From assembly GCF_036556685.1 (NCBI RefSeq), contig NZ_CP140614.1, forward strand, positions 372,001 to 436,000: a stretch of 64,000 nucleotides of DNA. Reading direction: 5' to 3'. Below, piece after piece: positions 21,351 through 61,817 of this stretch. Below the pieces are notes generated by a model. That model worked only from the letters and a program-made list of their open reading frames with translations, was not told where the DNA came from and did no database searches. Each line of letters begins with the position of its first letter. Position 1 is the stretch's first letter. Position numbers and translations under genes: made by a program. This stretch comes from Sulfurospirillum sp. 1612 (lineage in GTDB: Bacteria > Campylobacterota > Campylobacteria > Campylobacterales > Sulfurospirillaceae).

Positions 21351-23231
21351 ATGATTTTATTTGATTCGCTTACGGTTACATTTGTACTGCTATTAACACT
21401 AGCAGTGATTCCAAATCTATTTTATACCTTTGGTTATCAATCACATATCAAACGTAAAGCGCATTTTTTTATTCACTATTTTGCATTTATTGCCTCCATG
21501 TATGGAGTGGTATTTGCTTCCAATGGCTTAATGTTTCTCTTTTTCTGGGAGATCATGAGCCTCACATCCTGGCAGTTGATTTTGACAGATGCTCGCAACA
21601 ATACTACGATTAAAGCAGCCAGATTTTACTTTTTTATGACGCACTTTGGTTTTACTTTTTTATTATTATTCTTTTTGATTGCGACCAACGGTCAGCTGGA
21701 ATTAGATTTTTCTGCGATGAAAGAGATTGTCTCGACTTTTGCGTATCCTACCTTGCTTTTTTTCTTTTTGATTTTGGGATTTTTGAGCAAAGCGGGCGTG
21801 GTTCCGATGCACGTATGGCTTCCCTATGCTCACCCAGCTGCACCCTCTCCGGTATCTGCTTTGATGAGTGGGGTGATGATTAAAATAGCGATTTATGGGA
21901 TGTTTCGATTCTTGTTTGATGTTTTGAATATGTGGCAACTTGAATGGGGTGTTTTAATATTAGTATTGGGGGCAATATCGAGTTTAGTTGGTGTTTTGTA
22001 TGCCCTCAGTGAACACGATATCAAAGCGCTTCTTGCCAATCACTCGATTGAAAATATCGGCATTATTTTGATTGGTTTTGGTATGGGGATGATTTTCATG
22101 ACGTTGGGACTAAAAACCATGAGTGCGTTTGCTTTCATCGCCGCGTTGTTTCATGTATTTAATCATATGAGTTTTAAATCGTTGCTATTTCTATCTGCTG
22201 GCAGTGTGATTCAGCAGAGCAATACGCATAATATTGAACATTATGGTGGCTTGATTAAATCCATGCCTATTACGGCTTTTACCTTTTTGCTAGCATCCAT
22301 CTCTATCTCGGCACTGCCACCTACCAATGGATTTTTGAGTGAATGGATGATTTTCCAATCGCTTCTTGGGTCTTCAACGATTTCGGATATTTCCTTGCGA
22401 CTGGCGATACCTTTTTCTGTGTTTGCACTCTCTTTGACCGGAGGTTTGGCGATTGCGTGTTTTGTGAAAGTTTTTGGCATTAGTTTTCTAGGACTTCACC
22501 GAAGTACCAATGCCAAACATGCGCTAGAAGTGAATATCATGATGCGTACGGGTATGATTTTGATGGCGCTTGTTGTGGTCTCTTTGATGCTTTTTACACC
22601 GGCATTTATCTATCTATTTGACCAAACGATGATGCAACTCTCACATGTGAGTATCTATCATACTGTTTTCCCAAATATCTGGAGTTTGCATGCGCTATCT
22701 GATAATAAAGGCGTGGTATCGCCACTCATCTTGCTGGTCGGTTTGATTGTGATTACTGTGGCATTATTGCTTGTTTATAAAGTCCTTAAAATAAAAGAGC
22801 GCCGATGTCATACCTGGGCTTGTGGCTATAACACCAATGCGGTGACGCAATACTCAGCCACGGGGTTTGCCGGACCCATTCGCATCTTTTTTGCATGGCT
22901 TTATAAGCCTAAAGAACAGATTGAAAAAGAGGTCATATCAGGGCATCAAACCAAGTTTGTTGAAGCGCATTATCAAGTGCATGTGAAACCATTATTTGAA
23001 CATTCTTTATATGACAATATGGTGAAATTTACCAATCGCATCAGTTATTATGTGTACCGTTTTGCACACTTTGAACAGACAAAATATGCTGCGATGATTT
23101 TTAACATGATGCTAACGGTGCTCTTTAGTTACCGTATTTTTACACACGATTTTAGTTGGGCTACTTTTGCCCTCGAATCCGTGGTCATGATCATCTCGAT
23201 TCGTGTTTTGATTATTGGAGTGAAACGATGA
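21351..23231 (+). CDS. Antiporter-like membrane subunit of a hydrogenase-4/Ehr-type complex (HyfB-like)
   Basis: A 626-residue integral membrane protein of the NuoL/HyfB proton-pump family. It keeps the residues of the pumping path: Glu in FFWEIMS (about 67), Lys in SGVMIKIAIYG (TM7, about 175), the HPAAPSPVSAL loop before it, His in NHSIENIG (about 230) and Lys in ACFVKVFG (TM12, about 375), then a C-terminal extension with CHTWACGY. The stop overlaps the next start (ATGA). No clear separate promoter is seen in the 67-base gap after fabH (a TATAAC at 21332 is too close to the start). Part of the block of five membrane and large-subunit genes. Confidence 0.88.
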   Translation: MILFDSLTVTFVLLLTLAVIPNLFYTFGYQSHIKRKAHFFIHYFAFIASMYGVVFASNGLMFLFFWEIMSLTSWQLILTDARNNTTIKAARFYFFMTHFGFTFLLLFFLIATNGQLELDFSAMKEIVSTFAYPTLLFFFLILGFLSKAGVVPMHVWLPYAHPAAPSPVSALMSGVMIKIAIYGMFRFLFDVLNMWQLEWGVLILVLGAISSLVGVLYALSEHDIKALLANHSIENIGIILIGFGMGMIFMTLGLKTMSAFAFIAALFHVFNHMSFKSLLFLSAGSVIQQSNTHNIEHYGGLIKSMPITAFTFLLASISISALPPTNGFLSEWMIFQSLLGSSTISDISLRLAIPFSVFALSLTGGLAIACFVKVFGISFLGLHRSTNAKHALEVNIMMRTGMILMALVVVSLMLFTPAFIYLFDQTMMQLSHVSIYHTVFPNIWSLHALSDNKGVVSPLILLVGLIVITVALLLVYKVLKIKERRCHTWACGYNTNAVTQYSATGFAGPIRIFFAWLYKPKEQIEKEVISGHQTKFVEAHYQVHVKPLFEHSLYDNMVKFTNRISYYVYRFAHFEQTKYAAMIFNMMLTVLFSYRIFTHDFSWATFALESVVMIISIRVLIIGVKR

Positions 23232-24148
23232 GTTTGTATATTTTTTCTATCCTTTTGATGATGTTGCTCTCACCAATGTTGTTGAGTTTTATTAAATTAG
23301 TGAAGATGTTTCTACTGTATAAAAAACCCATTTCCATCTTTCAAGGGTACCGAAATTTATCCAAGTTATTTGTCAAAGAAACTATGGTGAGTTATGAAGC
23401 GAGTGTCATCACTAAAATCGCACCTTTTTTAGTGCTCTCTCCACTGTTATTGGTTCTATTCTTTTTGCCGCCGCTTTCAAAAGGTGAGTATTATGTGAGC
23501 TTTATTGATGCTTTTACGATTACGGGGTTGATTTCTTTGTCGACATTCTTTTTGATGCTGTTGGGATTAGACAGTGCGAGTGGATTTGGCGGGATTGGTT
23601 CGAGTCGTGAAGCGTTTATTTCAGCACTGGTTGAACCTGCGATGATTTTGACGATTTTTAGTGTTTCGGTGATGGCCAAAGATTTGGGCGTCGCTCAAGC
23701 GGGAATCAATTTAGCAGAACATTTTCCTCAAGATCATATTGCGAGTTTCCTCTTTGCTAGTATTAGCTTTTTTATTTTATTGATTGCTGAAAACGGTAGG
23801 ATTCCGGTTGATAATCCTGAAACGCATCTGGAGCTTACGATGATTCATGAAGCGATGGTTTTGGATATTTCTGGGTTTCATCTCGCCCTCATCGAAATTG
23901 CATCTGCTATTAAATTTATGATTTTTGGCTCTTTGTTTGTCTCGCTTTTTCTACCATTTGGCGTGGGACTTCCTGTCTATTTGGCTATTATCGTGTTTCT
24001 TGTCAAACTCTTTTTGGTTGCGGGTGTTGTGGCTGTTTTAGAGGTAAATACTGCAAAATTGAGACTTTTTAAAATACCCAATCTTTTGGGCGTGGCGATT
24101 GTTTTTGCATTTTTATCTCTTATTACCTTTTATGTCTTGGGAGCGTGA
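23228..24148 (+). CDS. NuoH/HyfC-like membrane subunit
   Basis: The 306-residue protein, about 8 helices, is the counterpart of NuoH/HyfC/HycD, which connects the hydrophilic arm to the membrane arm near the quinone or E-channel. The signature ENGRIPVDNPETHLELTMIHEAMVLD (about 195-220, spanning several conserved acids) is complete. The ATG at 23228 overlaps the preceding stop by 4 bases; a longer upstream reading in the same frame runs inside the previous gene and is not used. Confidence 0.9.
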   Translation: MSLYIFSILLMMLLSPMLLSFIKLVKMFLLYKKPISIFQGYRNLSKLFVKETMVSYEASVITKIAPFLVLSPLLLVLFFLPPLSKGEYYVSFIDAFTITGLISLSTFFLMLLGLDSASGFGGIGSSREAFISALVEPAMILTIFSVSVMAKDLGVAQAGINLAEHFPQDHIASFLFASISFFILLIAENGRIPVDNPETHLELTMIHEAMVLDISGFHLALIEIASAIKFMIFGSLFVSLFLPFGVGLPVYLAIIVFLVKLFLVAGVVAVLEVNTAKLRLFKIPNLLGVAIVFAFLSLITFYVLGA

Positions 24149-24151
24149 TAG

Positions 24152-24739
24152 ATGGAAAATTTACTGATTGGGCTTTTCTTGGCGACACTCATCACTGCTT
24201 TTTTTACAACCCGTTTGTATCGATTGATTTTGTGGTATTCACTCAATTCGCTGACTTTGGCACTTTTGGCTATTTTTATGGGTATGAATCTTCATGATCA
24301 TACGATGATTACCAGCGGTGCTTTGACACTGGTTTTAAAAGCGATTGCAATACCGTATATCTTAAAACAAATTAGCCAAAGATTCAACCTGCCAAGACAG
24401 TTAGAACCGAGCATCAAAGTCTACTATTTTATCATACTAATTCCGGCGATTTTGGTCTTTACTTTTTATCTCGCCAATCCAATCCTTAGTATGGCTACGA
24501 GCAATACAAACTATGTTGCCATTAGTATTTCCGCACTCTTTTTGTCTTTGTTGTTGATTATTGAACACAAAGATATCGCACCACAAATTATTGGATTTTT
24601 GACGATTGAAAATTCACTATTTTTGCTAGGGACAACGGCAACGGAAGGGATGCCTATGATGATTGAACTGGGTATTTTTGTAGATCTCATGATGGCCATT
24701 GTGATTATCAATCTATTGTTTAAAACGGAGCATACATGA
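24152..24739 (+). CDS. HyfE-like membrane subunit (NuoK-related)
   Basis: A 195-residue membrane protein with about six helices, the length and position of HyfE, whose N-terminal part corresponds to NuoK. Acidic residues within helices (for example Glu in IENSLF near 150 and Glu in IELGIFVD near 170) are where this family keeps its proton-channel acids. It starts 3 bases after the NuoH-like gene and overlaps the HyfF-like gene by 4 bases. Confidence 0.83.
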   Translation: MENLLIGLFLATLITAFFTTRLYRLILWYSLNSLTLALLAIFMGMNLHDHTMITSGALTLVLKAIAIPYILKQISQRFNLPRQLEPSIKVYYFIILIPAILVFTFYLANPILSMATSNTNYVAISISALFLSLLLIIEHKDIAPQIIGFLTIENSLFLLGTTATEGMPMMIELGIFVDLMMAIVIINLLFKTEHT

Positions 24740-26151
24740 TATTAGCATTTCTTTTGTTGCCCTCTGTGGTTATTTTTATTGTCTCTTTTTTGAATATTAC
24801 AAAACAAAAGACAGTGCTGAGTGTGGTCTCTTTGTTGGTGCTTATACCGGCCATTTGGCTTTTTTTCTTGCCCCGACCTTATCCTATATTGGGACCGTAT
24901 CTTGTCGCTGATGATTTAAATACCTATATTTTCTTGGTCTCTTCTATTGTTGCTATTGGAGTGACACTAGCGATGGCAACATTGGATAAACATGTCAGCA
25001 TTAGCTTGAAGGCGTATGCACGATTTTATCGATTTTTTGCACTCTTTTGGATGGGATTAATTGTCTCGATAATGTCCAATAACATGGGGCTTTATTGGAT
25101 TGGTCTAGAGACCGCGACATTGAGTACGGTTTATATGATTAAAACCAACCAAACCTCATTTGCAAGAAGAGAATCATGGAATTACATGATCGTCGGAGCC
25201 ATTGCGATTTCGTTGATTTTATTTGGAATTATTTTGATTTATTCTAGTGCGAAACCGATATTGGGAGAAGAGGCGATGAATTTCACCAAATTGCTCCAAA
25301 ATGCCAAAAACATCTCTTCTATCTTTTTATTTGAAACTGGTTTTGCTATTGTGAGCTTGGGTATGTTTATTAAGATGGGATTTTTTCCGATGAATTTATG
25401 GCTTGCCAATATTGAACGCTCTTCGTTTTATCCTATCGCTGCGCTTTTTAGTGGGATATTGGAGAGTGCTGTGATATTGGGATTTTTTAGATTTAGTCAT
25501 ATTGCCAAAATCGTCAATTTCTCACATGTTTTTGTTTTTGTCTTTGTGTATGCACTTTTGACGATTTTCATCGTCTCTTTTTTGATTTTTCGTGCGAAAG
25601 ATTTCATCCGATTGTTTAGTCTCTCGGGCATTGAGCATATGGCATTGATTACGATATTTTGGGTGAGTGGGGGTATTTTTGCAGCCTTGCTTCATTTTGG
25701 AGCGCACGCCTTTTTGAAGCCCGCACTTTTCTTATCGACGGGTGTTTTAGAATCACAAGGTCAATACAAGATAGCCGGTGCTTTGAGGGGATATCGTGGT
25801 ATCAAAGGCAAACTCTTTTATTTTCTCACGAGTCTATTTTTATTAGCCATTATTTCTCTGCCCCCCAGTCCGATGTTTTTCTCTGAGCTTTTCGGATTCT
25901 CTTCGATGATTAAAATCGCCAAAGAGAGTCACCATCTATTTCTCATGATAGGTTCAATCATCTTATTGTTATTTCTCTTGTTGATTATTTTTTATAAGTT
26001 TGTAGAGATTTATCAATCCATGAAATATGAAGGCGAGGTTGTTGAAAAGAGAGTGTATACTCCAGAAGTTTATGCATTATTATTATTTGCTATTGCATTG
26101 GTCGTGCTCATCACTCCGATGAGTTTTGCGTTTATTGGAGCCATATCATGA
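24736..26151 (+). CDS. Second antiporter-like membrane subunit (HyfF-like)
   Basis: A 471-residue NuoM/N-type membrane protein. Glu in YWIGLETATL (about 120), His in GIEHMAL (about 300) and the H-x3-H-x2-K-type segment HFGAHAFLKPALFL (about 318-331) are present. In the TM7 segment (about 235-250) the Lys expected after SG-hydrophobic is missing: the sequence is SGILESAVIL, with Glu-Ser in its place, unlike the first antiporter subunit. Proton transfer here may therefore use a different residue. It overlaps both neighbours by 4 bases. Confidence 0.85.
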   Translation: MILAFLLLPSVVIFIVSFLNITKQKTVLSVVSLLVLIPAIWLFFLPRPYPILGPYLVADDLNTYIFLVSSIVAIGVTLAMATLDKHVSISLKAYARFYRFFALFWMGLIVSIMSNNMGLYWIGLETATLSTVYMIKTNQTSFARRESWNYMIVGAIAISLILFGIILIYSSAKPILGEEAMNFTKLLQNAKNISSIFLFETGFAIVSLGMFIKMGFFPMNLWLANIERSSFYPIAALFSGILESAVILGFFRFSHIAKIVNFSHVFVFVFVYALLTIFIVSFLIFRAKDFIRLFSLSGIEHMALITIFWVSGGIFAALLHFGAHAFLKPALFLSTGVLESQGQYKIAGALRGYRGIKGKLFYFLTSLFLLAIISLPPSPMFFSELFGFSSMIKIAKESHHLFLMIGSIILLLFLLLIIFYKFVEIYQSMKYEGEVVEKRVYTPEVYALLLFAIALVVLITPMSFAFIGAIS

Positions 26152-27518
26152 GATTGATTGCTAGATTTTGTGTAGAACATCATGATCATTTTGAAATCAT
26201 CACCCTCTTTGATACTTCTATCACGCGTGTCAAATTGGAAAAAGAGCATCCTGTCTTAGACAGTATTGCCTCAGAATACCCTGCTGCGATATGGTTTGAG
26301 AGGAAGATTAAAGATGACTTTGGCATTGCCATTCACAATACTTTTGACAACCGACCTCTTGTGCATCATGAGCGGTTTCCAAATCTCGCTCCAATGCGCA
26401 AAGATTTCAAAGACAGCACGATAGAATTTTGTGATTTTGTCCCTTACAAATATGAGAGTATTCATGGAGATGGGGTCTTTCAAATTGCAGTTGGGCCCAT
26501 TCATGCAGGTATCATCGAGCCGGGACATTTTCAATTTTCACAAGCAGGGGAGCATATGTTGCATTTAGAGGTGCGACATTTTTATAAATACAGAGCGATT
26601 GAAAAAATGCTCGAGGGCAAAACGCTTTTTGAGGCTAAGGCTATTATTGAGCGTATTAGTGGCAATGAAAGCATTGCGTACCAAATTGCTTGGTTTAAAA
26701 TCCTCTTACAAGCCAGCGGGATGGAGTATCCTCTAAAACTTCAAAAATATCATGCTTTATTGTTGGAAATGGAGCGTTTGATACATCATTTGAATGATAT
26801 TGGATTTATTGGCAATGATGCGGGTTTTGGTGCCGGTCTTGCTATTTGCTCGAAACTCTCAGAAGAGAGTAGACGCATGTTGCAAGCCATCAGCGGACAT
26901 CGATTTGGTTTTGGTGCGATTGGATTTGAAGCCCCCGCTTATGATTATGAAAAATTGAGAAAATTTTTGAGTGATTTGGATCGAGATATAAAATGGCTAG
27001 AAGATTGGATTGTAGATGTGCCCTCTCTTTGGGATCGTTTTGATACAACAGGGATACTCACCCTCTCTAAAGCGATTAAATATTCAACCGTGGGGGTGTT
27101 AGCCCGAGCCAGTGGCCTAGCGATTGATCACAGAGTCACAGAGCCGATTTATAAAGATGCTGGTTTTATCATGCAAACACAATCAAGTGGAGATGTTGGT
27201 GCACGGTTTTTGCTTCGGATTAAAGAGGTGCGCCAATCCATCGGTATCATCAAAAATCTAATCGACCATCACCCCACTCATCTCTCAAAACCCACAGCCT
27301 TTGCAACGGGTGAATTTATGAGTTTTGCAGAAAGTTCATTGGGTGAGTTATTTATGTATGTGAAGCTAAAAGAGGGGAAAATAGATCGATTTTACAGTCG
27401 AGACCCGAGTTTCATCAATTGGCAAGCGCTTTATCTTCTCATGAGCCGTGATATTATCGCCGATTTTCCACTTATCAATAAAAGCTGTGATTTAAGTTAT
27501 GCAGGGAATGATCTGTAA
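26148..27518 (+). CDS. Ni-free hydrogenase-like large subunit (HyfG/NuoCD-like, Ehr type)
   Basis: A 456-residue fusion of a NuoC-like domain (about 1-85, IWFERKIKDDFGI) and a NuoD/[NiFe]-hydrogenase large-subunit domain (PIHAGIIEPGHFQF, about 117-130). Active group-4 hydrogenases bind Ni-Fe through two CxxC pairs. Here the N-terminal pair reads Ser171-Gly-Asn-Glu174 and the C-terminal pair reads Ser450-Tyr-Ala-Gly453 at the extreme end. All four ligands are gone and only four scattered Cys remain, so it should not be a hydrogenase. The whole fits the energy-converting-hydrogenase-related (Ehr) class, relatives of complex I with unknown substrate. The stop lies in an 8-bp hairpin. Confidence 0.87.
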   Translation: MRLIARFCVEHHDHFEIITLFDTSITRVKLEKEHPVLDSIASEYPAAIWFERKIKDDFGIAIHNTFDNRPLVHHERFPNLAPMRKDFKDSTIEFCDFVPYKYESIHGDGVFQIAVGPIHAGIIEPGHFQFSQAGEHMLHLEVRHFYKYRAIEKMLEGKTLFEAKAIIERISGNESIAYQIAWFKILLQASGMEYPLKLQKYHALLLEMERLIHHLNDIGFIGNDAGFGAGLAICSKLSEESRRMLQAISGHRFGFGAIGFEAPAYDYEKLRKFLSDLDRDIKWLEDWIVDVPSLWDRFDTTGILTLSKAIKYSTVGVLARASGLAIDHRVTEPIYKDAGFIMQTQSSGDVGARFLLRIKEVRQSIGIIKNLIDHHPTHLSKPTAFATGEFMSFAESSLGELFMYVKLKEGKIDRFYSRDPSFINWQALYLLMSRDIIADFPLINKSCDLSYAGNDL

Positions 27519-27602: not shown

Positions 27603-28526
27603 ATGGCAACCTATGCTTGTGGGCATATAAACCCCGATTCAGATTCAATTTGTAGTGCGATTGCGCTTTCATATCTTAAAACACAACTTAAAGAACCTTG
27701 TATCCCAGCACGTCAGGGCGAACTCAATCCAGAGACTGAGTTTATCCTCAATAAATTTGGTTTTGAAAAACCCGTGTTAAAAACAGAATTTGCAGGAGAG
27801 AATCTCTATATTGTGGATTATTCTAATTCACTTGAAGCACCTAAAGATGTCAAAGAAGCGACAATAAAAGGGATTATCGATCACCATAAATTGGGCGATT
27901 TGACGACTTCAACACCGCTTGAGTGTTGGATTAGACCTGTGGGATGTACCAATACGATTATTAAAGAGATGTATGATTATCATCAAGTAGAAATTCCTAA
28001 AGATATTGCAGGAATTATGTGTTGTGCTATTCTTTCAGATACGGTCATTTTCAAATCGCCAACGTGTACGAAAATCGACACAAAAGCGTGCAAAGCATTG
28101 GCAAAAATTGCAGGAATCGAAGATGTACGCGCACTTGGCATGGAGCTATTTATCGCAAAATCAGCCATCAAAGGAGCGACACCGCGAGATTTGATTAAGC
28201 GCGATTTCAAAGATTTTGAGATGCATGGCCATAAAGTCGGCATTGGACAATTGGAAGTGGTGGACCTTAGCACCTTTGATGCGATGAAAGAGGATCTACT
28301 CGCGGATATGAAAGCGTTAAAAGAAGAGGGCGACAGACATACGGTTATCTTGCTGTTGACCGATATCCTCAAAGAGGGTTCACAACTACTTTGTGTGAGT
28401 GATGATGCGACGATTATCGAAAATGCCTTTGGTGCGACACTTCAAGATTCACAAGTCTGGCTTCCAAAAGTATTGAGTCGAAAAAAACAAGTGACTCCAC
28501 CACTAGAAGCTGCCTTTAACCAATAA
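27603..28526 (+). CDS. ppaC: Manganese-dependent inorganic pyrophosphatase (family II)
   Basis: DHH-family cytosolic enzyme that hydrolyses pyrophosphate and so drives biosynthetic reactions. The 307-residue protein has the metal-binding GHINPDSDS (about 8-16), the Asp of YIVDYSN (about 75), the DHH motif in IIDHHKLGD (about 97-105) and the C-terminal DHHA2 domain with SRKKQVTPPLE, the substrate-binding SRKKQ. It is flanked by its own promoter and terminator and looks like an independent gene between respiratory modules. Confidence 0.96.
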   Translation: MATYACGHINPDSDSICSAIALSYLKTQLKEPCIPARQGELNPETEFILNKFGFEKPVLKTEFAGENLYIVDYSNSLEAPKDVKEATIKGIIDHHKLGDLTTSTPLECWIRPVGCTNTIIKEMYDYHQVEIPKDIAGIMCCAILSDTVIFKSPTCTKIDTKACKALAKIAGIEDVRALGMELFIAKSAIKGATPRDLIKRDFKDFEMHGHKVGIGQLEVVDLSTFDAMKEDLLADMKALKEEGDRHTVILLLTDILKEGSQLLCVSDDATIIENAFGATLQDSQVWLPKVLSRKKQVTPPLEAAFNQ

Positions 28527-28535
28527 TAAACAATA

Positions 28536-28560
28536 AGATAGATGGCGCTGTCATCTATCT
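28536..28560 (+). terminator. Intrinsic terminator of ppaC
   Basis: AGATAGATG (28536-28544) and CATCTATCT (28552-28560) form a perfect 9-bp stem with a 7-base loop, followed by a C/T-rich tail. Confidence 0.75.
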
Positions 28561-28596
28561 CCTTCTCTCACCACTCCTTCAACAAATCCTTTTAAA

Positions 28597-28618
28597 TGTA
28601 AAGAAATTGTAAAGAAAT
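28597..28618 (+). promoter_or_regulatory. Tandem 11-bp repeat, CpxR-box-like site
   Basis: TGTAAAGAAAT occurs twice without a gap (28597-28607 and 28608-28618), which gives GTAAA-N6-GTAAA. OmpR-family regulators bind direct repeats spaced one helical turn, and the enterobacterial CpxR consensus is GTAAA-N(4-8)-GTAAA. TTGACA at 28631-28636, a possible -35 box, lies 12 bases downstream. The operon that follows ends with an OmpR-type regulator and kinase, so autoregulation is likely but is inference. Confidence 0.6.
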
Positions 28619-28677
28619 GTCTTTTGATTCTTGACAGATAGTGCTTATTATTTCAGTATCAATTTAAAAGGAAGGTG

Positions 28678-29094
28678 ATGAAAAAAATAATTCTAAGCAC
28701 GACTCTGTTGAGTGCAGTACTCAGTGCTGCGACGTTTAATGCGCCGATGCAAGCGTACATCAATGATTTAAAAGTACAAGCAAAAGCACAAGAGAGCCAT
28801 TTTGTAGATTTTGATGCTAAAAGAGGGGCAGAAATTTTTACCAGTACACATATTGGTAAAAGAGGGACTAAAATGTCTTGCACGAGTTGCCATACCATAG
28901 ATTTGAGACAAGAAGGCAAAAATGAACGGACCAATAAAATACTCAAACCCCTCGCTCCTTCAGCTAATCCTGAGCGTTTAACACAGGTGCGTGATGTCAA
29001 AAAATGGCTAAGGCGAAATTTCAATGATGTGTACAACCGCGTTGGAACGGCCAAAGAAAAAGGCGACGTTTTATATTACATCAATTCAAAATAA
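28678..29094 (+). CDS. SHP-like (DUF1924) monohaem cytochrome c
   Basis: Secreted cytochrome: signal peptide at about 1-18, then one haem site CTSCH near residues 68-72. The C-terminal segment WLRRNFNDVYNR (about 110-121) matches the DUF1924/SHP family, in which an Asn near this place is the displaceable haem ligand, allowing oxygen or NO to bind; which Asn does so here is inferred. ATG 28678 is preferred to GTG 28675 because AAGGA lies 5 bases before it. SHP genes are usually linked to a dihaem cytochrome (DHC) and a cytochrome b561, exactly as here. Confidence 0.82.
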   Translation: MKKIILSTTLLSAVLSAATFNAPMQAYINDLKVQAKAQESHFVDFDAKRGAEIFTSTHIGKRGTKMSCTSCHTIDLRQEGKNERTNKILKPLAPSANPERLTQVRDVKKWLRRNFNDVYNRVGTAKEKGDVLYYINSK

Positions 29095-29106
29095 AAAGGA
29101 GTGCAC

Positions 29107-29601
29107 ATGAAGAAAGTAGTATGGTCGGGAATTTTATTATCAAGTTTACTGTGTGCTGCTGGAGTCCAACCGGTTCATGATAGCACATATATCAAAGAGT
29201 GTGGCAGTTGTCATTTTGCATTTCAACCCGGGTTATTGCCCCAGCGCTCTTGGAAAAAGATTATGAATAATTTAGAAAATCATTTTGATACCGATGCGAG
29301 TTTAGATGAAAAGAGTCGTAGTTATTTATTAAAATATATGGTGACCCATTCGAGTAATCATGCGATGGAATATAAAAGAAGTCGAAAAATCACTTACTCC
29401 ATTGCGCCCAATCAGACGCCTATTCAAGTTACAAAGACACCGTATTTCATCCGAAAACATCGCCGTATCAAGCCTCGTATGATCACGCAAAAGGAGGTGG
29501 GAAGTATTAGTAATTGTACCGCTTGTCATGCGGGAGCAAAAAGTGGTGATTATGGAGAACATGCCGTGAAAATACCAAATTATAGGAATTATGATGACTA
29601 A
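29107..29601 (+). CDS. Dihaem cytochrome c (DHC family)
   Basis: A 164-residue periplasmic protein with a signal peptide (about 1-18) and two haem sites, CGSCH near 34-38 and CTACH near 140-144, with the DHC-type segment LLPQRSW...LENHFDTDASLD between them. DHC passes electrons to SHP. The ATG at 29107, 5 bases after AGGAG, is favoured over GTG 29101. The end overlaps the cytochrome b561 gene by 11 bases. The C-terminal domain of that next gene is a second copy of this fold. Confidence 0.87.
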   Translation: MKKVVWSGILLSSLLCAAGVQPVHDSTYIKECGSCHFAFQPGLLPQRSWKKIMNNLENHFDTDASLDEKSRSYLLKYMVTHSSNHAMEYKRSRKITYSIAPNQTPIQVTKTPYFIRKHRRIKPRMITQKEVGSISNCTACHAGAKSGDYGEHAVKIPNYRNYDD

Positions 29602-30712
29602 GAGTTATGTCTGGCCATGGGTGAACCGGCTCTCCCATCTGTTGTTGATTGTATTTTTGGCAACGGCGTATTTGATAGGAGATTATAAAAAATTAGCAGA
29701 TTATCATGTTGCTTTTGGTTATGCTTTGGGTGTGGTTTTTGTGTTTCGTATTATCTGGGGGTTTGTGGGACCACGATATTCTAAGTTTAAAGATTTTAAC
29801 TTTAATTTAGCCGATCTCAAAGCGTATCTACTCTCTCCTTTTCGCAAAGGCAAACCTTATATTGGGCATAATCCAGCATCAAGTTATGCCATTATCGGCA
29901 TGATTTTGCTGACATTCTTGACGATTGTTTTCGGAGTTTTGACGCAAGGAATTGAAAAAAATCATGGGATTTTATCATTGTTACATAATGCTTATTTTGA
30001 ACATATGGAGCTTTTTTCCCATTTGCATGAATTTTTCGCCAATGCTTTGATTGCTTTGATTGGTATCCATATTGCCGGCACACTCATCGATAAATTTATC
30101 AAAAAAGGTGATGCCATTGATGCGATGGTAAATGGCTATAAAAAAACTAAGACACATGTGAGTGTGAGATTAAATATTTGGCAAAAGTTATTTGCGATTC
30201 TTTGGATTGGTGTCTCACTTTTTACTTTGTATTATATGCTTGCTACCAAAGACAATATGTGGATCGCCAGTGCGAATATAAAACAAGATTATGCTCAGTT
30301 ACATCAGGATTTTAGTAAAGAGTGCGGGAGTTGTCATATCACGTACCCGCCTTTTTTACTTCCTAAAAGCTCATGGGTGTCGATGATGGAACATCTTGAT
30401 AATCACTTTGGTGAGGATGCAAGCCTTGATGAGATAAGCAAAAATTCTATCATGGCATTCTTGAGTCAAAATAGTGCAGAACACTCAACACAAGAGGCGG
30501 CTTTTAAAATTCTAAAAAGTATGGAACAAAACAGTACAATAATCGCTATCACAGAAACTCCATACTGGAAACATCGCCACCGAAAGATCAAAAAAGAGGT
30601 TTTTGCGAGTGCTGAGGTCAAAAGCAAGGCCAATTGCAAAGCTTGTCATAGTGGGATACAAAACGGTATAATTGAAGATAATAGGATTCACATACCAAGG
30701 AGCGAAGGATGA
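29591..30712 (+). CDS. Cytochrome b561 fused to a dihaem cytochrome c (DHC) domain
   Basis: A 373-residue fusion. The first about 220 residues are a four- to five-helix cytochrome b561 with candidate haem histidines (for example His16 in NRLSH, His near 137 in EHMELFSHLHEF and His in IGIHIAGT near 157). After another helix (about 200-218) follows a periplasmic domain that repeats the free DHC: CGSCH near 240-250, LLPKSSW, DNHFGEDASLD, and CKACH near 350. The protein should oxidise quinol and pass electrons directly to its own haem c domain and then to the free cytochromes. Overlaps the genes on both sides. Confidence 0.87.
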   Translation: MMTKSYVWPWVNRLSHLLLIVFLATAYLIGDYKKLADYHVAFGYALGVVFVFRIIWGFVGPRYSKFKDFNFNLADLKAYLLSPFRKGKPYIGHNPASSYAIIGMILLTFLTIVFGVLTQGIEKNHGILSLLHNAYFEHMELFSHLHEFFANALIALIGIHIAGTLIDKFIKKGDAIDAMVNGYKKTKTHVSVRLNIWQKLFAILWIGVSLFTLYYMLATKDNMWIASANIKQDYAQLHQDFSKECGSCHITYPPFLLPKSSWVSMMEHLDNHFGEDASLDEISKNSIMAFLSQNSAEHSTQEAAFKILKSMEQNSTIIAITETPYWKHRHRKIKKEVFASAEVKSKANCKACHSGIQNGIIEDNRIHIPRSEG

Positions 30713-31104
30713 TATTACGATGCTTGATAGTGCTGACTTTGATTTTTGGAACCCTACAGGCGGATGATCATAAACATCACAAAGATTATCATCACTATTT
30801 TAGTAAAGATTTGACCTATTTACATCTCAGCAAAAAACAAGAACATGAGATGAAAAAAGTTCTCAAAGAGTATCGCCATCAAGCCAAAAAATTTCGTAAA
30901 TCACGAGAAAAGATGTCAGATAAAAAAGAGAGACTTTTTTTAAATGATACATTTGATGCGCACAAGCTGAAAGCCATCAATCAAGAACTTTGGAATCAAG
31001 CATTTGAGGTGGAGGTAGAGTTTTTGAAGCATGTTCATGATATTTTAACACCCACACAAAGAGCCGCATTTGCAAAATATAGTGACGCATGGAATGTAGA
31101 ATGA
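30709..31104 (+). CDS. CpxP/Spy-like periplasmic protein (LTxxQ)
   Basis: A 131-residue, highly charged helical protein with a signal peptide (about 1-18), a His-rich start of the mature part (DDHKHHKDYHHYF) and a C-terminal ILTPTQRAAF segment, the LTxxQ motif of CpxP, Spy and CnrX/ZraP-type periplasmic chaperone/sensors. The His cluster may bind metal. In enterobacteria CpxP restrains the sensor CpxA; here the gene lies directly before a CpxR/CpxA-like pair, overlapping the regulator start (ATGA), so a similar control loop is plausible. Confidence 0.78.
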   Translation: MILRCLIVLTLIFGTLQADDHKHHKDYHHYFSKDLTYLHLSKKQEHEMKKVLKEYRHQAKKFRKSREKMSDKKERLFLNDTFDAHKLKAINQELWNQAFEVEVEFLKHVHDILTPTQRAAFAKYSDAWNVE

Positions 31105-31772
31105 AGATTTTGCTCATCGAAGACGATTTGGATATGCAAGAACTGTTGATAGATTATCTGAAACATTACGATTATGAAGTCATCGCGTATGCAAGTCCTT
31201 TGTCGGCAATCAAAGCATTAAAGGCACCCTCAAGTGATTATCATTTGGTCGTTTTAGATTTGATGCTACCCGAACTTGATGGTTTTGATGTGTGTCAGCG
31301 GATTCGAGAAAAAAGCGATATTCCTATCATTATATCCAGTGCAAGGGGTAATCTTGGGGATAAAATCGTAGCATTTGATTATGGGGCGGATGATTATCTT
31401 GCAAAACCCTATGAGCCAAGGGAGTTGGTGATGCGAATGAATGCGATTTTGAGAAGAGTCACCCACAAAGTACATGTGAAAAAAGTCGGAGAATTTGAAA
31501 TTGATGAGGATAAAATGCAGATTTCTCAAGAGCATACAGTCTTAAATTTGACGAAAATAGAGTATGAGATTTTCTCATTATTTCTGAATAATCCTAATAA
31601 AATCTTATCGCGTGAAAGTATCGCCAATTATCTTGGCAGTGATTATCACAACATCAAAGATCGTGCCATTGATATGCATATTAGTAACATTCGTAATAAA
31701 ATTTTTGATGATTCAAAATCAGCAAAATACATCAAATCAGTCTGGGGAATTGGGTACAAATTCATTGGATAA
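31101..31772 (+). CDS. OmpR/PhoB-family response regulator
   Basis: Receiver domain (about 1-118) with acidic pocket IEDD (6-9), phospho-acceptor Asp in LDLMLPELDG near 51-53 and Lys in AKPYEP near 102, then a winged-helix DNA-binding domain (about 130-222) with the C-terminal SVWGIGYKF hairpin. ATG 31101 overlaps the CpxP-like stop (ATGA) and gives 223 residues; an ATG 12 bases upstream is less likely. The kinase follows directly. It is the best candidate for binding the tandem GTAAA repeat at the head of this operon. Confidence 0.93.
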   Translation: MKILLIEDDLDMQELLIDYLKHYDYEVIAYASPLSAIKALKAPSSDYHLVVLDLMLPELDGFDVCQRIREKSDIPIIISSARGNLGDKIVAFDYGADDYLAKPYEPRELVMRMNAILRRVTHKVHVKKVGEFEIDEDKMQISQEHTVLNLTKIEYEIFSLFLNNPNKILSRESIANYLGSDYHNIKDRAIDMHISNIRNKIFDDSKSAKYIKSVWGIGYKFIG

Positions 31773-31791
31773 ATTAACAAAATTTTGGGAT

Positions 31792-33009
31792 ATGAGTCTC
31801 TTTAAAAAAGTCTTTATTCTTTTTTGTATTAGCATGGCTATCATGTTTTTTCTCTCGAGCAAAACCAATCAAATTACCAATGAAAAAATCGCATTGATTT
31901 ACAAAAATAAATACATTGAATCCTCCAAAGTCTTTTTAGATTATATGATCAATGGTGATATGCAAGGCCTCGCCAAACGTGCCCGTGAATTACAGTATGA
32001 GCGTAGAAAAATAGAGCACCTTCAAGATAAAAAAGTTGTTTATGAGCATAAGGTAGCCTTTGGTGATGTAAAAATCTTCCAAACTTCAGAAGGATATCTA
32101 CTCTATATGCAATATTTGGACGATCAAGTGCTCTATTATGATCAAAGCCAACATAATGAAATACAGCAAAAGGCACAATTAAATTATTTGATTATTGCAG
32201 ATATCTTACTTTTAATAGCAATCTTTTTGATTTTTATGCGGATGCTAAGTCCCCTAAAGAAGATTTCCAATGCGATAGAAGAGTTTGGTAGTGGGGATTA
32301 CTCTCTACGATTGCCTGAGCGCAAAAAGCATGATGAAATCTCAAAAGTTGTCAAAAAATTCAATGCGATGGCTACAAACCTAGAACACCTTATGGAGTCT
32401 AGAAACCAATTATTGCGCGATATTAGTCATGAGCTCCGCACGCCAATTTCCAAGGCGCTTTTATCGTTGGAGATGATGGAAGAGGGGAAATATAAGGTTA
32501 TTTTGAAGCGCTCCATCCAACAAATCGACAAACTCACCAATGATCTTTTGGAGGTTGAGCGACTCAACTCTGATAATCTTGTGTTGAACCTTCAAATATA
32601 TCCCATCAACTCAATACTAGCAGAAGCACTCTCTAAGATATTAATCGATGATGATGCTGATCTTCAGATTGATGTGCCTGAGCCTTTTAGTTGTGAAGTG
32701 GATCTCAATTACATCGCAATTGCTATCAAAAATCTGATTGACAATGCCCTAAAATATCGTACGCATGGAAAAGTCGAAATTCTAGTAAAAAATACCTCGA
32801 TTGCTATTAAAAACTTTGGAATACCTTTAGAGCGTGATTTGGAGTATTATATGCAAACCTTCACTCAAGAGGAATCTTCACGAAACATTGCAGGATATGG
32901 TTTGGGTCTGAATATTGTGAAACGTATTTTAGAACACCACCAATTAACGCTACAGTATTATCATGATAGAGGACAAAATGTTTTCATTATAAAATTTCAT
33001 GATATATAA
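31792..33009 (+). CDS. Membrane sensor histidine kinase (CpxA/ArsS-like)
   Basis: About 405 residues: first helix (about 5-22), a short periplasmic loop (about 25-125), second helix (about 130-152), HAMP (about 153-205), DHp with the phospho-His in DISHELRTPISKALLS (about 212) and a HATPase domain with N box NLIDNALKYR and GYGLGLNIVKRI. The start is uncertain: ATG 31792 puts the first helix at the N terminus; TTG 31765, overlapping the regulator's end, would add nine residues. The small periplasmic domain may sense the CpxP-like protein, a redox state or a metal; this is inference. Confidence 0.9.
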   Translation: MSLFKKVFILFCISMAIMFFLSSKTNQITNEKIALIYKNKYIESSKVFLDYMINGDMQGLAKRARELQYERRKIEHLQDKKVVYEHKVAFGDVKIFQTSEGYLLYMQYLDDQVLYYDQSQHNEIQQKAQLNYLIIADILLLIAIFLIFMRMLSPLKKISNAIEEFGSGDYSLRLPERKKHDEISKVVKKFNAMATNLEHLMESRNQLLRDISHELRTPISKALLSLEMMEEGKYKVILKRSIQQIDKLTNDLLEVERLNSDNLVLNLQIYPINSILAEALSKILIDDDADLQIDVPEPFSCEVDLNYIAIAIKNLIDNALKYRTHGKVEILVKNTSIAIKNFGIPLERDLEYYMQTFTQEESSRNIAGYGLGLNIVKRILEHHQLTLQYYHDRGQNVFIIKFHDI

Positions 33010-33048: not shown

Positions 33049-33567
33049 ATGATCAAATTTTGGCAGCGAAGAGCCAAGAACAAAATTTTGACAGAATGTT
33101 TAGAGTTCGATACAGAACTTGACGCGATTAAAAAGTCAATCAAAGATCACATTAAAAGAAAATTTGCCGGAAGTCTTGCTATCCGAATGGTCGATAGTGG
33201 CAGTTGTAATGCCTGTGAGGCTGAATGCAACGCCTTGTCAAATCCCTACTATGATCTTGAACGATTGGGAATCTATTTTGTAGCGAGCCCCCGACATGCT
33301 GATGTGATGTTGATTAGTGGAGTGATGAGTGTGAATATGTACCATCATGTTCTCAATGCCTATCGTCAGATGCCAGAACCCAAGTGGGTTGTCAGTGTTG
33401 GAGATTGTCCTAATATGGAAGCGCCGTTTGAGGAGACTTTTGCGATTAAAGCACCCATAGCGCAGCATATTGAAGTGTTTCATCACATCCCTGGTTGTCC
33501 TCCTGAGCCCAAAATGATTATTCGTGGATTGTTAGATTTTTTAAAAAAATTGGAGAAAAATACATGA
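33049..33567 (+). CDS. NuoB/HyfI-like Fe-S small subunit (Ehr complex)
   Basis: The 172-residue protein is the counterpart of HyfI/HycG/NuoB, carrying the [4Fe-4S] cluster next to the large subunit. It has SGSCNACEAEC (about 50-60), YDLERLGI, SPRHADVMLI, VGDC near 122 and HIPGCPPEP near 150, so the cluster ligands are intact although the partner's Ni site is lost. In other Hyf/Ehr operons this gene is beside the large-subunit gene; here it is about 5.5 kb away, behind ppaC and the cytochrome-Cpx operon. Overlaps the following membrane-protein gene by 4 bases (ATGA). No HyfH/NuoI-like ferredoxin subunit is encoded nearby. Confidence 0.87.
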   Translation: MIKFWQRRAKNKILTECLEFDTELDAIKKSIKDHIKRKFAGSLAIRMVDSGSCNACEAECNALSNPYYDLERLGIYFVASPRHADVMLISGVMSVNMYHHVLNAYRQMPEPKWVVSVGDCPNMEAPFEETFAIKAPIAQHIEVFHHIPGCPPEPKMIIRGLLDFLKKLEKNT

Positions 33568-56790: not shown

Positions 56791-59700
56791 TTAGCCAATC
56801 TTTGTGATATTTACAGGGATGGCTTGTCTGGCTGAAGAGCCACAAGCAAAATCCGCCGCAATTGCAAAGTTTCGGCTGGTATCTTTTAGTCCGAGTTTAT
56901 TATAATAAACCCCCGTTCTTCTTGAGGCCAAACCTTTGGTTACTTTGCCGTTGATTTCGATGTTGATAGCGCCTTCTGCTCTTCTACCGTCACCTTGTTC
57001 GACACCAATGGTATCAGGATGAACGCCATGTCTGAGTCTGAGGAAGCCCTCTGTTTGACCATCATGAGAGGCGACTTTGACATAATCACCGTGTCGTAAT
57101 CCTAATTTTTGCGCTGTTTTTGGATTGATATCGACATAGGTGGTATATCGAATCTGTTTCAAATTCGTGCTGGATGTATTGGGAGTGGAGAGTACATTAG
57201 ATTTGTATGAAAATGCCACCAAAGGAAATTGATCTTTTGGAAACAATTTATCATAAGTCTCACCGGTTGCAAATCGTTGTTTGAAAAATTTCGGTGACCC
57301 ACTGTGTTGTACTCCATTGAGTGCATTTTTGCTGGTACCGAGTTTTTCATTATAGATTTGTATTGGTTTTTGATATCTATGAGACGTGAAATCTCCATCA
57401 TAACTTTTTTCAAAATCTTCGTATCGTCCTCCACGTGCCATAACATAAGCGGTTTTTCTCCAGTTTTCTTTACAGATTTTTTTCAATGAAGGGATGTATT
57501 GTTCTATACCTGCGAGTTTGATCTCTTCATCGGTGGCATCAGGAACTGGCGTACCATCCATCGCGATATTTTCAAATGCTCTTAAATAAAAATCCTCAGC
57601 CTTATCAAATGGATAGAGTTTCCCATCTGTGCCTTGAATAGCATTTTCGCCAAAGCCAGGCAAATTCATTTTTTTACCAAGGGCGATGATGAAGCTTAGC
57701 ATCTCGATAGGTTCACCGTTTTTAAAGGTTGCTTGTCTTGGTTTGACTGCTGGGAATCTGAGTGTGTTGATTTTGGTCTGATACGCAGCCCACGCATGCA
57801 CAACACCCCAAGTTTCATACAATACAGAATCTGGGATAATATAATCAGCATATACAGAAGATTCGTTGATAAATGGATCGATTGCGACAAACAAAGGTAC
57901 CGCTTTTTTTGGATCTTTAATCAACTCTTTGATATGATTTTCTCCACCAGGAGTGCCATACATAAAGTTTGAATTAAAGGTGATAAGCGCATCCATTTTA
58001 TAAGGATAGCCCTTGAAACTGCTGGTGATAAACTCACTCTCTAGCGCATTGGTAAATGGGAACCAATTGTCTTTGGCTGGATAAGGGTTTTCACCTTTGG
58101 CGACTTTTTCTTTGTATTCATTAGTGCTTTCATAAGGTCGTCTCGCACGATCCATTCTGGCACCTCTGAGTTTGACTTTGCCTTTGTAAGCATAAAGATT
58201 GTATTGAGACCCGACGAAGTCTTTGTAGGCACCACCGCCACTGCTCATACCGCCTTTGTAGTTGAGATTTCCAATCATGGCTCCTAACATCATGACAGAA
58301 TAACTGGTATAAAATCCGGTCGTATGCATGGTACCACCATGACAATCGACACTGGCTTGTCTGCCAAAAGAGGTGAATTTTTTCGCGACTTCTTGCATCT
58401 TTTCAACACTCACGCCGCACTCTTTGGAGTAGGCATCCAAGCTCATATCATTGGCGTTGGTTTTGAGGTCATTAAAGGCTGTTTTGACTTGGTAAGTTTT
58501 GCCTTGATAGGTGATGCTTCCTTGATAATCAAGCACGGCTTGTAATACATCATGAGATGATTTTACGGTATGGTCTTTGCTATCAATAACCAGCGGAACA
58601 TTTTTATCTTTGAGTATCTTTCCAAAGCCCTCTTTGTCTTGAATAACAAGATGGCTGGCATTGGTCCATGAAGGCTCATGCAAGGCTTTCATCGCTTTAG
58701 CTGATGGCATTGAGAGGTATTTTTCATTATAGAGTTTATTGTTGATGATGATTTGTAACAATCCCATAGTAAAAGCCAAATCAGTCCCTGGAATAATCGG
58801 AATCCAGTTACTTTTGCCACCCACTGCTATGGTATCACTGTTCCCTTGCATTGGGGAGACGATGGTGTATTCGATATCGCCATCAGTTCGGGCACTAGAG
58901 AGGAGTTTTCCTTGTCGTTTAAAAGGATTTCCCGCTTGTCCTGGAGGTGTCCCGATACTCAGGAGGTATTTTGTATTTTCAAAATCTGGTTTTAGGTGTG
59001 GATATTTTTTGAAATCTCCCAAAAACGCAGCTTCTCCTGCTCTCATTGAAAGACCACAAATAGAAGTATGACCAGAATAATTGACACTTCCAAAGGACAT
59101 CATGAAGCGGTGGACCATCGGCATGGTTCTTCCCTCATGAGTGGTTCCAATACAGCAAAGTCCATTAGATTTTGGTCCAAATGATGGCTCTTTTGGGTTG
59201 ATGGGTGTGTTGAGGTCTCGGACATCTTTGAGTCCTTTGACCATGCCTTCACCAAACAGATCACCACCATTGACGATTTCAGAAATCAACTCATCAATAT
59301 CTATCTCTTTCCATTTGTTTTCACCTCTTTTACCCACTCTTTTAAGAGGTTTTAAAACGCGGTTTTCTGCATAGATTTTATCAAAGACAGAGTTACCTCG
59401 TGCGCAAACATTGGAGCGATAGGTTTCAAAATTCCCAGTTTGGGAGAGTGTTTTGTAGCTATCTTTAATACTCGTGTTATAAGGAAGCCATGGATTGGTG
59501 GAGAGCAAATTGTAAGGATTTCCCAGTACTCTCACTACTTTATCAGTTTTTTTATCGACTTTGATTCTCACCCCACATTGTGTCGTACATCCGATGCACG
59601 TGGTCGGAACGATTTTAAAATCTTCATTAGTTTTAAATTGTTTGTTTAAAAGACTGTATTCTGGTTGTGGTGAATTAAAATAGATACTATCTTTTGCCCG

Positions 59701-59817
59701 CTCTCCTTTGTCAGAAAGTGTGGCAACCGCCCCCAATGTCTCTTTGTATCCTGCAACTGAAGCAGCAGCAACTATCGCACCAGATCCCAATAAAAATTTT
59801 CTTCTACTATTTTGCAT
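56791..59817 (-). CDS. Molybdopterin oxidoreductase, tetrathionate reductase-like catalytic subunit
   Basis: A 1008-residue periplasmic molybdoenzyme: Tat signal SRRKFLLG (residues 4-11), [4Fe-4S] ligands Cys74-x2-Cys77-x3-Cys81 and Cys138, a probable Mo-ligand Cys in HTSICGLSMRAGE near 258, and the C-terminal molybdopterin-binding domain with GDGRRAEGA. Length, Cys ligand and the B-C-A gene order fit TtrA best; TtrA, ArrA (arsenate) and SrdA (selenate) belong to one clade, so the electron acceptor (tetrathionate, polysulfur, arsenate or selenate) is not certain. Overlaps the NrfD-like gene by 11 bases. No TorD-type chaperone is in the window. Confidence 0.78.
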   Translation of the reverse strand: MQNSRRKFLLGSGAIVAAASVAGYKETLGAVATLSDKGERAKDSIYFNSPQPEYSLLNKQFKTNEDFKIVPTTCIGCTTQCGVRIKVDKKTDKVVRVLGNPYNLLSTNPWLPYNTSIKDSYKTLSQTGNFETYRSNVCARGNSVFDKIYAENRVLKPLKRVGKRGENKWKEIDIDELISEIVNGGDLFGEGMVKGLKDVRDLNTPINPKEPSFGPKSNGLCCIGTTHEGRTMPMVHRFMMSFGSVNYSGHTSICGLSMRAGEAAFLGDFKKYPHLKPDFENTKYLLSIGTPPGQAGNPFKRQGKLLSSARTDGDIEYTIVSPMQGNSDTIAVGGKSNWIPIIPGTDLAFTMGLLQIIINNKLYNEKYLSMPSAKAMKALHEPSWTNASHLVIQDKEGFGKILKDKNVPLVIDSKDHTVKSSHDVLQAVLDYQGSITYQGKTYQVKTAFNDLKTNANDMSLDAYSKECGVSVEKMQEVAKKFTSFGRQASVDCHGGTMHTTGFYTSYSVMMLGAMIGNLNYKGGMSSGGGAYKDFVGSQYNLYAYKGKVKLRGARMDRARRPYESTNEYKEKVAKGENPYPAKDNWFPFTNALESEFITSSFKGYPYKMDALITFNSNFMYGTPGGENHIKELIKDPKKAVPLFVAIDPFINESSVYADYIIPDSVLYETWGVVHAWAAYQTKINTLRFPAVKPRQATFKNGEPIEMLSFIIALGKKMNLPGFGENAIQGTDGKLYPFDKAEDFYLRAFENIAMDGTPVPDATDEEIKLAGIEQYIPSLKKICKENWRKTAYVMARGGRYEDFEKSYDGDFTSHRYQKPIQIYNEKLGTSKNALNGVQHSGSPKFFKQRFATGETYDKLFPKDQFPLVAFSYKSNVLSTPNTSSTNLKQIRYTTYVDINPKTAQKLGLRHGDYVKVASHDGQTEGFLRLRHGVHPDTIGVEQGDGRRAEGAINIEINGKVTKGLASRRTGVYYNKLGLKDTSRNFAIAADFACGSSARQAIPVNITKIG

Positions 59818-60991
59818 TTTCTACTCCTTCATAACAATCTTGCATCTCTTCATCCCATGGAAATATTAACAACACGGCACAAATAAGTGCAAATAAGATA
59901 CCCCAATTTGAGAGTACCGCCATCACACTGTCTTGTCCATACATTGGTGGGGTGTAATGTGAAAATCCCGGAGTGGTGCGAGGGATTTCTTGACCGCCGA
60001 TTACCGTATTCCATCTAAATAGCCATACGCCAATTGCGGTGACGATACCGCCAAAATAGACGACCGATGGGATATTTCTGAGTTTTGTAAAGCCGATGAT
60101 GAGTGGCACAAAAAGACACAATACATAATCAATCCAAAGTGTATCTTCAAAATGCAAGCTAAAGTATTGATAGAGCGCATATTTTTCGCCATCTGCAAAG
60201 GTGAGTGAAAAGGTCAACCATAAAAATCTCATGACTAAATCGGCCACAATAAACCAAGAGAGTAGTTTCGCTAACGTAGCGACCATGTCTCTGTCGACTT
60301 TTTTGCGTTCGGATAAAAATCTTTGAAAAAGTGGGATTAAGATGACCAAAAGTCCGGTTCCTGAGACCATCGCTGAGGCCAAAAAGATAAGCGGCATCAA
60401 AGGAGTGTGCCACATGACATTGGCATGAACAGCACCTAAGATGTATCCGGTATATCCATGTACGGCTAAAGCGAGTGGAATACCAATAGCGCCTAAAATG
60501 TAGCCTTTTTTATGATCTTTTTCCATGGCAGCTTCACTTAAATCAGTGTTACCAAAAGTAAAGAGCATATTAAACACTCTGGCTAAGCCTCTACTGTTTT
60601 GCGCTTTTTTGACAAAATAGGTACGATACAGTGCTTGCGCTTCAAAAAAGATGAGGATTGGATAGGCCATGAGCAACAAAACACCCCATTTCATCGGTGA
60701 TGTTGGGAAATCTTCCCAGCCATATAAGAAAAAGTTTAAAATTCTGCCTGGTTGTCTTAAATCATCGATGAGATTCAGTGGTGCTGCGACCAACAAAACA
60801 AAGGCCATCAATAAGGAAACTCCCGCGATTGGTTTGTACTTTTTCCATCCAAAAACATGTGCAAAGCTTGAGATGATAAACGCTGCTGCGGAACTGCCGG
60901 TAAACCAAAAATAATTTGGTATATCAATACCCCAAGGTTTTTCTATTGTAATAGAAGAGATTAGTGTTAAAAAGTGTTGCATATTATCCAT
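59807..60991 (-). CDS. NrfD/TtrC-like quinol-oxidising membrane subunit
   Basis: A 394-residue membrane protein with about nine or ten helices of the NrfD/PsrC family, which oxidises quinol and delivers electrons to the Fe-S subunit without haem. It lies between the B and A subunit genes and overlaps both (8 and 11 bases). An acidic loop with YGWEDFP (about 90-96) is present. Two ATG codons nine bases apart (60991, 60983-60981) are possible; the first gives overlap with the TtrB-like stop. It anchors the complex on the periplasmic face. Confidence 0.85.
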   Translation of the reverse strand: MDNMQHFLTLISSITIEKPWGIDIPNYFWFTGSSAAAFIISSFAHVFGWKKYKPIAGVSLLMAFVLLVAAPLNLIDDLRQPGRILNFFLYGWEDFPTSPMKWGVLLLMAYPILIFFEAQALYRTYFVKKAQNSRGLARVFNMLFTFGNTDLSEAAMEKDHKKGYILGAIGIPLALAVHGYTGYILGAVHANVMWHTPLMPLIFLASAMVSGTGLLVILIPLFQRFLSERKKVDRDMVATLAKLLSWFIVADLVMRFLWLTFSLTFADGEKYALYQYFSLHFEDTLWIDYVLCLFVPLIIGFTKLRNIPSVVYFGGIVTAIGVWLFRWNTVIGGQEIPRTTPGFSHYTPPMYGQDSVMAVLSNWGILFALICAVLLIFPWDEEMQDCYEGVENAK

Positions 60992-61793: not shown

Positions 61794-61817
61794 TGTCACT
61801 CCTTTTATTTTGAACGA

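Follow-up and report, generated by a model that had tools for sequence, protein, structure and literature searches.

A 64,000-nucleotide stretch of Sulfurospirillum sp. 1612 (contig NZ_CP140614.1, positions 372,001 to 436,000; hereafter the window) encodes a hydrogenase-4-like membrane complex whose large subunit has lost all four nickel-binding cysteines. Such complexes are called energy-converting-hydrogenase-related (Ehr), a name that reportedly originates with Coppi (2005) and Marreiros (2013). Five genes, ehrB, ehrC, ehrE, ehrF, and ehrG, are coupled by ATGA-type overlaps (23228-23231, 24736-24739, and 26148-26151) and a 3-base gap (24149-24151), and a sixth, ehrI, lies further downstream (Table 1). 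Families were assigned with Pfam and NCBIfam, which agreed with each other, the NCBIfam scores being under the curated equivalog cutoffs. The first-pass annotation of this DNA had described five HyfB-HyfC-HyfE-HyfF-HyfG-like genes joined by short gaps or overlaps; all five reading frames and their families agree with that description, but the annotation overlooked the sixth subunit, and the complex is a six-subunit EhrB-C-E-F-G-I.

Table 1. Genes and sites of the ehr locus, in window coordinates
Feature	Position	Strand	Family match or remark
EhrB, HyfB-like antiporter subunit, 626 aa	21351..23231	+	Proton_antipo_M / hydrogenase-4 subunit B, 567 bits
EhrC, HyfC/NuoH-like	23228..24148	+	NADHdh, PF00146 2e-30; ATG overlaps ehrB stop
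EhrE, HyfE-like, NuoK-containing	24152..24739	+	NF008556 1e-16, 61 bits
EhrF, HyfF-like antiporter subunit	24736..26151	+	Hydrogenase-4 subunit F family match
EhrG large subunit, 30-kDa and 49-kDa domains	26148..27518	+	Complex1_30kDa and Complex1_49kDa
L1 site of EhrG, S171-G-N-E174 replacing C-G-x-C	26658..26669	+	
L2 site of EhrG, S450-Y-A-G453 replacing C-x-x-C	27495..27506	+	
Non-complex genes between ehrG and ehrI	27603..33009	+	Absent from the ehrG-ehrI interval in other genomes
EhrI small subunit, HyfI/NuoB-like	33049..33567	+	PF01058; displaced from operon in the window's genus

The two nickel-ligand sites of EhrG read R-I-S171-G-N-E174 (L1) and D-L-S450-Y-A-G453 (L2); the corresponding formate hydrogenlyase subunit encoded by this genome has CGIC and CYSC there. 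The four cysteines of EhrG (8, 95, 234, and 447) are scattered, none of them is invariant among orthologs, and no CxxC was found anywhere in the whole protein, which leaves no alternative CxxC nickel ligands. A search of 397 Campylobacterota genomes returned 28 full-length orthologs (54 to 100% identity) and one fragment, other matches being at most 36% identical. Across the 27 orthologs that were aligned, S171, G172, S450, Y451, A452, G453, D455, L456, E124, and H127 never vary, and 26 of the orthologs have E174 (the other has Asp). Because the replaced sites are conserved, the cysteine loss is neither chance nor decay, and conservation across the 28 full-length orthologs likewise excludes a pseudogene or an annotation artifact. 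The AlphaFold model of EhrG (mean pLDDT, 91.5; loop 119-129 of low confidence) has its best match in the Protein Data Bank with Escherichia coli HycE (7z0s; fold TM score, 0.91; sequence profile E value, 7e-70). The earlier claims that Ser171..Glu174 and Ser450..Gly453 stand where the Ni-Fe CxxC pairs should be, and that all four nickel-binding cysteines are gone, thus hold.

Related large subunits were collected by a profile search of genome contigs with the EhrG alignment, which detected at least 576 related loci (four-Cys relatives included). The best 80 of these were examined and comprised four-Cys Hyf-like hydrogenases (CGxC / ELCYxC) and Cys-less sequences; among these 80, the Cys-less sequences outside Campylobacterota read S-G-D and N-L-S-Y-[AS]-G-x-D-L and came from Nitrospirota, Pseudomonadota, Actinomycetota, archaea, and Patescibacteria. 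In quick large-subunit trees (Shimodaira-Hasegawa-like approximate likelihood ratio support, no bootstrap), 72 of 72 Cys-less rows fell on one side of a single branch (support, 99, or 96 when the motif columns were removed). Four-Cys Hyf-like rows lay next to them, formate hydrogenlyase lay outside, and the 24 Campylobacterota rows formed one clade (100) on a long stem. This grouping of every Cys-less large subunit is consistent with a single loss of the nickel ligands in Ehr. With a large subunit devoid of the four cysteines, this position in the tree, a small subunit with cluster cysteines, and antiporter-like subunits, the window complex is an Ehr, a member of a known, widespread family (PMC6349859, PMC7304191, PMC10284858, PMC12342949); motif, gene content, fold, and tree all support the earlier Ehr-type classification. 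These recent papers still give the function of Ehr as unknown.

Described Ehr of Nitrospira, Patescibacteria, and Riflemargulisbacteria (PMC12342949, PMC7304191, PMC6349859) share the Cys-less S-G-[DN] and S-Y-[AS]-G motifs, usually the set of six genes B-C-E-F-G-I, and the single clade. Campylobacterota Ehr are about 35% identical to these, with SGNE in place of SGD(T/S/E), an extra EhrI cysteine (C60) specific to their clade, and an EhrF without PxHxWLPDAH. The nearest Cys-bearing relatives found are four-Cys Hyf-like [NiFe] hydrogenases (L096, L121, and L160, from Selenomonas, Desulfotomaculum, and Thermincola), which have the same six subunits and share HAGIIEPGHFRF and DFPLxNKSF with Ehr but, unlike Ehr, retain nickel ligands (CGxC and ELCYxC). 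E. coli formate hydrogenlyase, although closest to EhrG in sequence and fold among structures, differs in its Ni-Fe ligands, HycF/HycB ferredoxin subunits, and formate dehydrogenase partner; in the window complex, both the L1/L2 CxxC pairs and the HyfH-type subunit of group 4 [NiFe] hydrogenases are lacking. Respiratory complex I (NuoBCDHIJKLMN) has core and pump subunits homologous to those of Ehr but differs in NuoI and the adjacent-Cys N2 motif, neither of which was found in the window complex. The membrane-bound sulfane reductase (MBS) of Pyrococcus (6u8y) is likewise a complex I-type machine that lost its Ni-Fe site, but it has a three-Cys catalytic proximal cluster, Mrp modules, and a ferredoxin subunit (MbsN); the window complex shows neither the shortened three-Cys small-subunit motif nor Mrp modules.

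EhrI belongs to the complex even though it is displaced in the window's genus. It directly follows ehrG, in the order ehrB-C-E-F-G-I, in 25 of the 26 fetched orthologous loci outside that genus (a few operons end at contig edges, and the exception, L059, gave no usable open reading frame call); in a Campylobacteraceae metagenome-assembled genome (MAG; L082), the same site reads plsX-fabH-ehrBCEFGI without interruption. In the window, a 5.5-kb block separates ehrG from ehrI and encodes a DHH phosphoesterase, DUF1924/SHP, diheme cytochromes, cytochrome b561, and a response regulator with a kinase; positions 28675-33009 comprise DUF1924 (SHP), a DHC diheme cytochrome, a cytochrome b561-DHC fusion, and the two-component system. 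In a sister species (G330; L052, 7248-14325), a second ehr operon of another lineage (ISGDNA / NLSYAGNDL) and a transporter gene lie between the ehrG and ehrI of the first operon. Cysteines C53, C56, C120, and C150 of EhrI, with hydrogenase-type CxxC spacing, are present in 27 of 27 sequences. No HyfH/NuoI-type ferredoxin subunit (2[4Fe-4S]) was found in the window operon or the orthologous Campylobacterota operons, no Mrp-type antiporter genes occur in the window ehr operon, and no shared accessory gene was found beside ehr in Campylobacterota. In Methanomassiliicoccus, a Cys-less Ehr (L131, 5684-6970 and the next gene) does have a HyfH-like ferredoxin gene, placed between its G and I genes.

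The first antiporter subunit had been said to keep its Lys/Glu/His pumping residues, and E67, K147, K178, H268, H272, K276, and E331 of EhrB are indeed invariant in 25 of 25 orthologs and identical in the formate hydrogenlyase paralogue. EhrE E172 and D178 are invariant among orthologs. EhrF retains E125, K213, H320, K328, and E384, but its transmembrane helix 7 loop reads PMNLWLANIER, PxHxWLPDAH being lost in all Campylobacterota orthologs, and it has no helix 8 lysine. That missing lysine was rejected as a hallmark of Ehr, since many four-Cys Hyf enzymes also lack it. With pumping residues conserved in EhrB, retained in EhrC and EhrE, and less well kept in EhrF, the proton-pumping role proposed in the first-pass annotation is plausible from sequence. 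Three Campylobacterota loci (L057, 1258-5040; L062, 14300-18235; L084) hold a tandem second EhrB, which predicts Ehr complexes with three antiporter-like subunits and resembles the doubled NuoM of 2M complex I, itself hypothesized to reduce ferredoxin in Nitrospira (PMC6606698).

ATP-citrate lyase (ACL; PF16114), taken here as the mark of the reverse tricarboxylic acid (rTCA) cycle, had a strong match in 119 of the 397 Campylobacterota genomes: 28 of 29 genomes with Ehr against 91 of 368 others (P = 4e-15 by Fisher's test; phylogeny was not corrected for, and shared ancestry inflates the result). In family f1 alone, 4 of the 6 ACL-positive genomes but none of the 16 ACL-negative ones have an Ehr-type complex, these complexes belonging to two lineages (P = 0.002). 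Within Campylobacterota, Ehr is therefore nearly restricted to species that fix CO2 by the rTCA cycle, an association limited to this phylum. The first-pass annotation, sound in its classification, mentioned neither this near-restriction nor the absent ferredoxin subunit. Close relatives of the Nitrospira moscoviensis Ehr sequence are ACL positive in 27 of 28 cases.

Elsewhere, ehrI-B-C-E-F-G lies directly behind atpD in four loci (L108, L112, L130, and L143; atpC intervenes in three), two of which are on contigs named as Patescibacteria (Moranbacteria and Magasanikbacteria). A 457-amino-acid gene product adjoining ehr in Patescibacteria was considered as a redox partner and rejected, being atpD. 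TrkA and TrkH potassium uptake genes stand directly upstream of ehrB in some loci (L066/L088, 358-3122; L089), and a SulP-like transporter gene stands beside ehr in two (L109 and L079).

The source genome (G000) has HypD and real hydrogenases, which makes its maturation genes uninformative about Ehr. A HypD match is absent in 15 of 33 genomes with Cys-less Ehr, including an actinomycete (G423; 10.6 Mb), the others being partly incomplete MAGs. G000 also holds five further complex I-type machines (two Nuo, an Mrp-Nuo hybrid, a formate hydrogenlyase, and an Ech-like complex), as well as three hydrogenase large subunits (PF00374) that are not of group 4. One locus (L013, 3336-12567; contig C1, approximately 1311 to 1321 kb) combines an Mrp antiporter with NuoH/B/C/D/I-like genes in a single operon; its large subunit reads RICVPEP and LGICPPEIER, as in an MBX/MBS-like complex or an Mrp-complex I hybrid. 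On the minus strand of the window (56791-61799) lies a Psr/Phs-like molybdopterin reductase operon with NrfD-type and iron-sulfur subunits (PsrABC-like).

The reading we favor, tentatively and short of even confidence, is that Ehr derives from a hydrogenase, resembles complex I, has no Ni-Fe site, and works as an ion-translocating oxidoreductase. It would exchange electrons between a soluble carrier of low potential and a substrate held in the pocket that has lost its metal (perhaps menaquinone), and it would perhaps be driven in reverse to reduce ferredoxin. In favor of this reading count the conserved motifs, the tree, the HycE-like fold, the six-gene operon lacking HyfH, the EhrB pumping residues, the tandem EhrB copies, the loci behind ATP synthase genes, and the ACL counts in Campylobacterota. 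Because no HyfH is present, a soluble one-electron carrier (ferredoxin or flavodoxin) probably docks directly on EhrI, and single electrons would pass through the EhrI cluster, whose four invariant cysteines suggest electron transfer. The second substrate, most likely menaquinone, with which rTCA-using Campylobacterota respire, would occupy the pocket, bounded by EhrG, EhrI, and EhrC, that once held Ni-Fe, and H+ or Na+ would be moved by EhrB, by EhrC/E, and perhaps by EhrF. Campylobacterota that live autotrophically on the rTCA cycle would likely use the complex to reduce ferredoxin at the expense of the ion gradient; this is the least certain step, tentative because the ACL link was not seen in Nitrospirota. 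Across 148 genomes of that phylum, Ehr-like matches (Cys motifs checked in part only) were not enriched with ACL (present in 33 of 62 genomes with ACL and in 58 of 86 without it; P = 0.09), and a general rTCA role for Ehr was rejected on this ground. The Nitrospirota result counts against the oxidoreductase reading, as do several other points: Ehr occurs in actinomycetes and Patescibacteria; the EhrI cluster motif is hydrogenase-like and not of the complex I adjacent-Cys type; the replaced EhrG site is lined with conserved polar residues (Ser, Asn, Glu, and Ser), and the same pocket in complex I and MBS is described as a hydrophobic cavity (PMC7684303); and a UbiA-family enzyme was not seen in 3 of 6 small Ehr genomes, although these are incomplete MAGs, and the absence is only suggestive against quinone as a universal substrate.

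Ehr may instead run forwards, oxidizing reduced ferredoxin, reducing menaquinone, and building an ion gradient for ATP synthesis. The conserved EhrB pumping residues, the four distant loci in which ATP synthase genes adjoin ehr, and the presence of Ehr in lineages outside rTCA autotrophy speak for this direction, but rTCA autotrophs, to which Campylobacterota Ehr is nearly confined, consume reduced ferredoxin; we regard the forward direction as possible, though on the unlikely side. It is improbable that Ehr reduces sulfane or polysulfide at its proximal cluster, as Pyrococcus MBS does. MBS is likewise a complex I relative with lost Ni-Fe ligands (PMC7684303), and the window itself contains the PsrABC-like operon, but the MBS small-subunit motif is 3 residues shorter and leaves one Fe uncoordinated by Cys, and the ehr operon has no Mrp subunits; the intact hydrogenase-type cysteine set of EhrI, a full-length CxxC plus two more Cys in every sequence, makes this alternative less likely. 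Equally hard to credit is a module built on the Hyf scaffold that does no redox chemistry or is coupled only indirectly, such as a cation/proton antiporter or a CO2-hydrating complex, to which the upstream TrkA-TrkH genes, the SulP-like neighbor, and the unusual EhrF helix 7 loop would lend themselves; such neighbor associations are few, no Dab/Cup-type Zn site was recognized, and the invariance of all four EhrI cluster cysteines runs counter to a module of this kind. A working hydrogenase with unusual ligands is strongly disfavored and exceedingly improbable: Ehr has the fold, cluster subunit, and E124/H127 motif of hydrogenases, and a hyc annotation has been published in Nautilia (PMC2628731, PMC10092268), but all four thiolates are gone in every ortholog, Ehr occurs in the 10.6-Mb genome without a HypD match, and Nitrospira moscoviensis Ehr expression reportedly did not rise with H2 (PMC12342949).

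The Nautilia annotation concerns the hyc hydrogenase of Nautilia profundicola, described by Campbell et al. with six locus tags (PMC2628731), a label repeated for strain PV-1 (PMC10092268). In the N. profundicola AmH genome (G039), the EhrG ortholog (L069) is found at 674 kb (minus strand) among six Ehr genes and carries the SGNES and DLSYAG motifs. Because gene count, strand, and approximate position agree, hyc is almost certainly Ehr, and published energy schemes that count it as an H2-evolving hydrogenase are called into question. The Ehr clade is also present in the named, sequenced strains Sulfurovum sp. NBC37-1 (G263) and Nitratiruptor sp. SB155-2 (G036).

New here is that the sixth subunit is displaced, that Campylobacterota Ehr form a distinct clade with a motif set peculiar to it, that the Nautilia operon is probably misannotated, and that an association with rTCA autotrophy exists, limited to the phylum. 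The co-occurrence with the rTCA cycle in this phylum provides a physiological correlate for the Ehr family. That Campylobacterota Ehr is a gradient-driven ferredoxin reductase feeding the rTCA cycle, so that vent chemoautotrophs would have a site of energy coupling not described before and mistaken for an H2-evolving hydrogenase, is a doubtful proposition at present; if Ehr does reduce ferredoxin, it would help to explain how rTCA autotrophs obtain their low-potential electrons.

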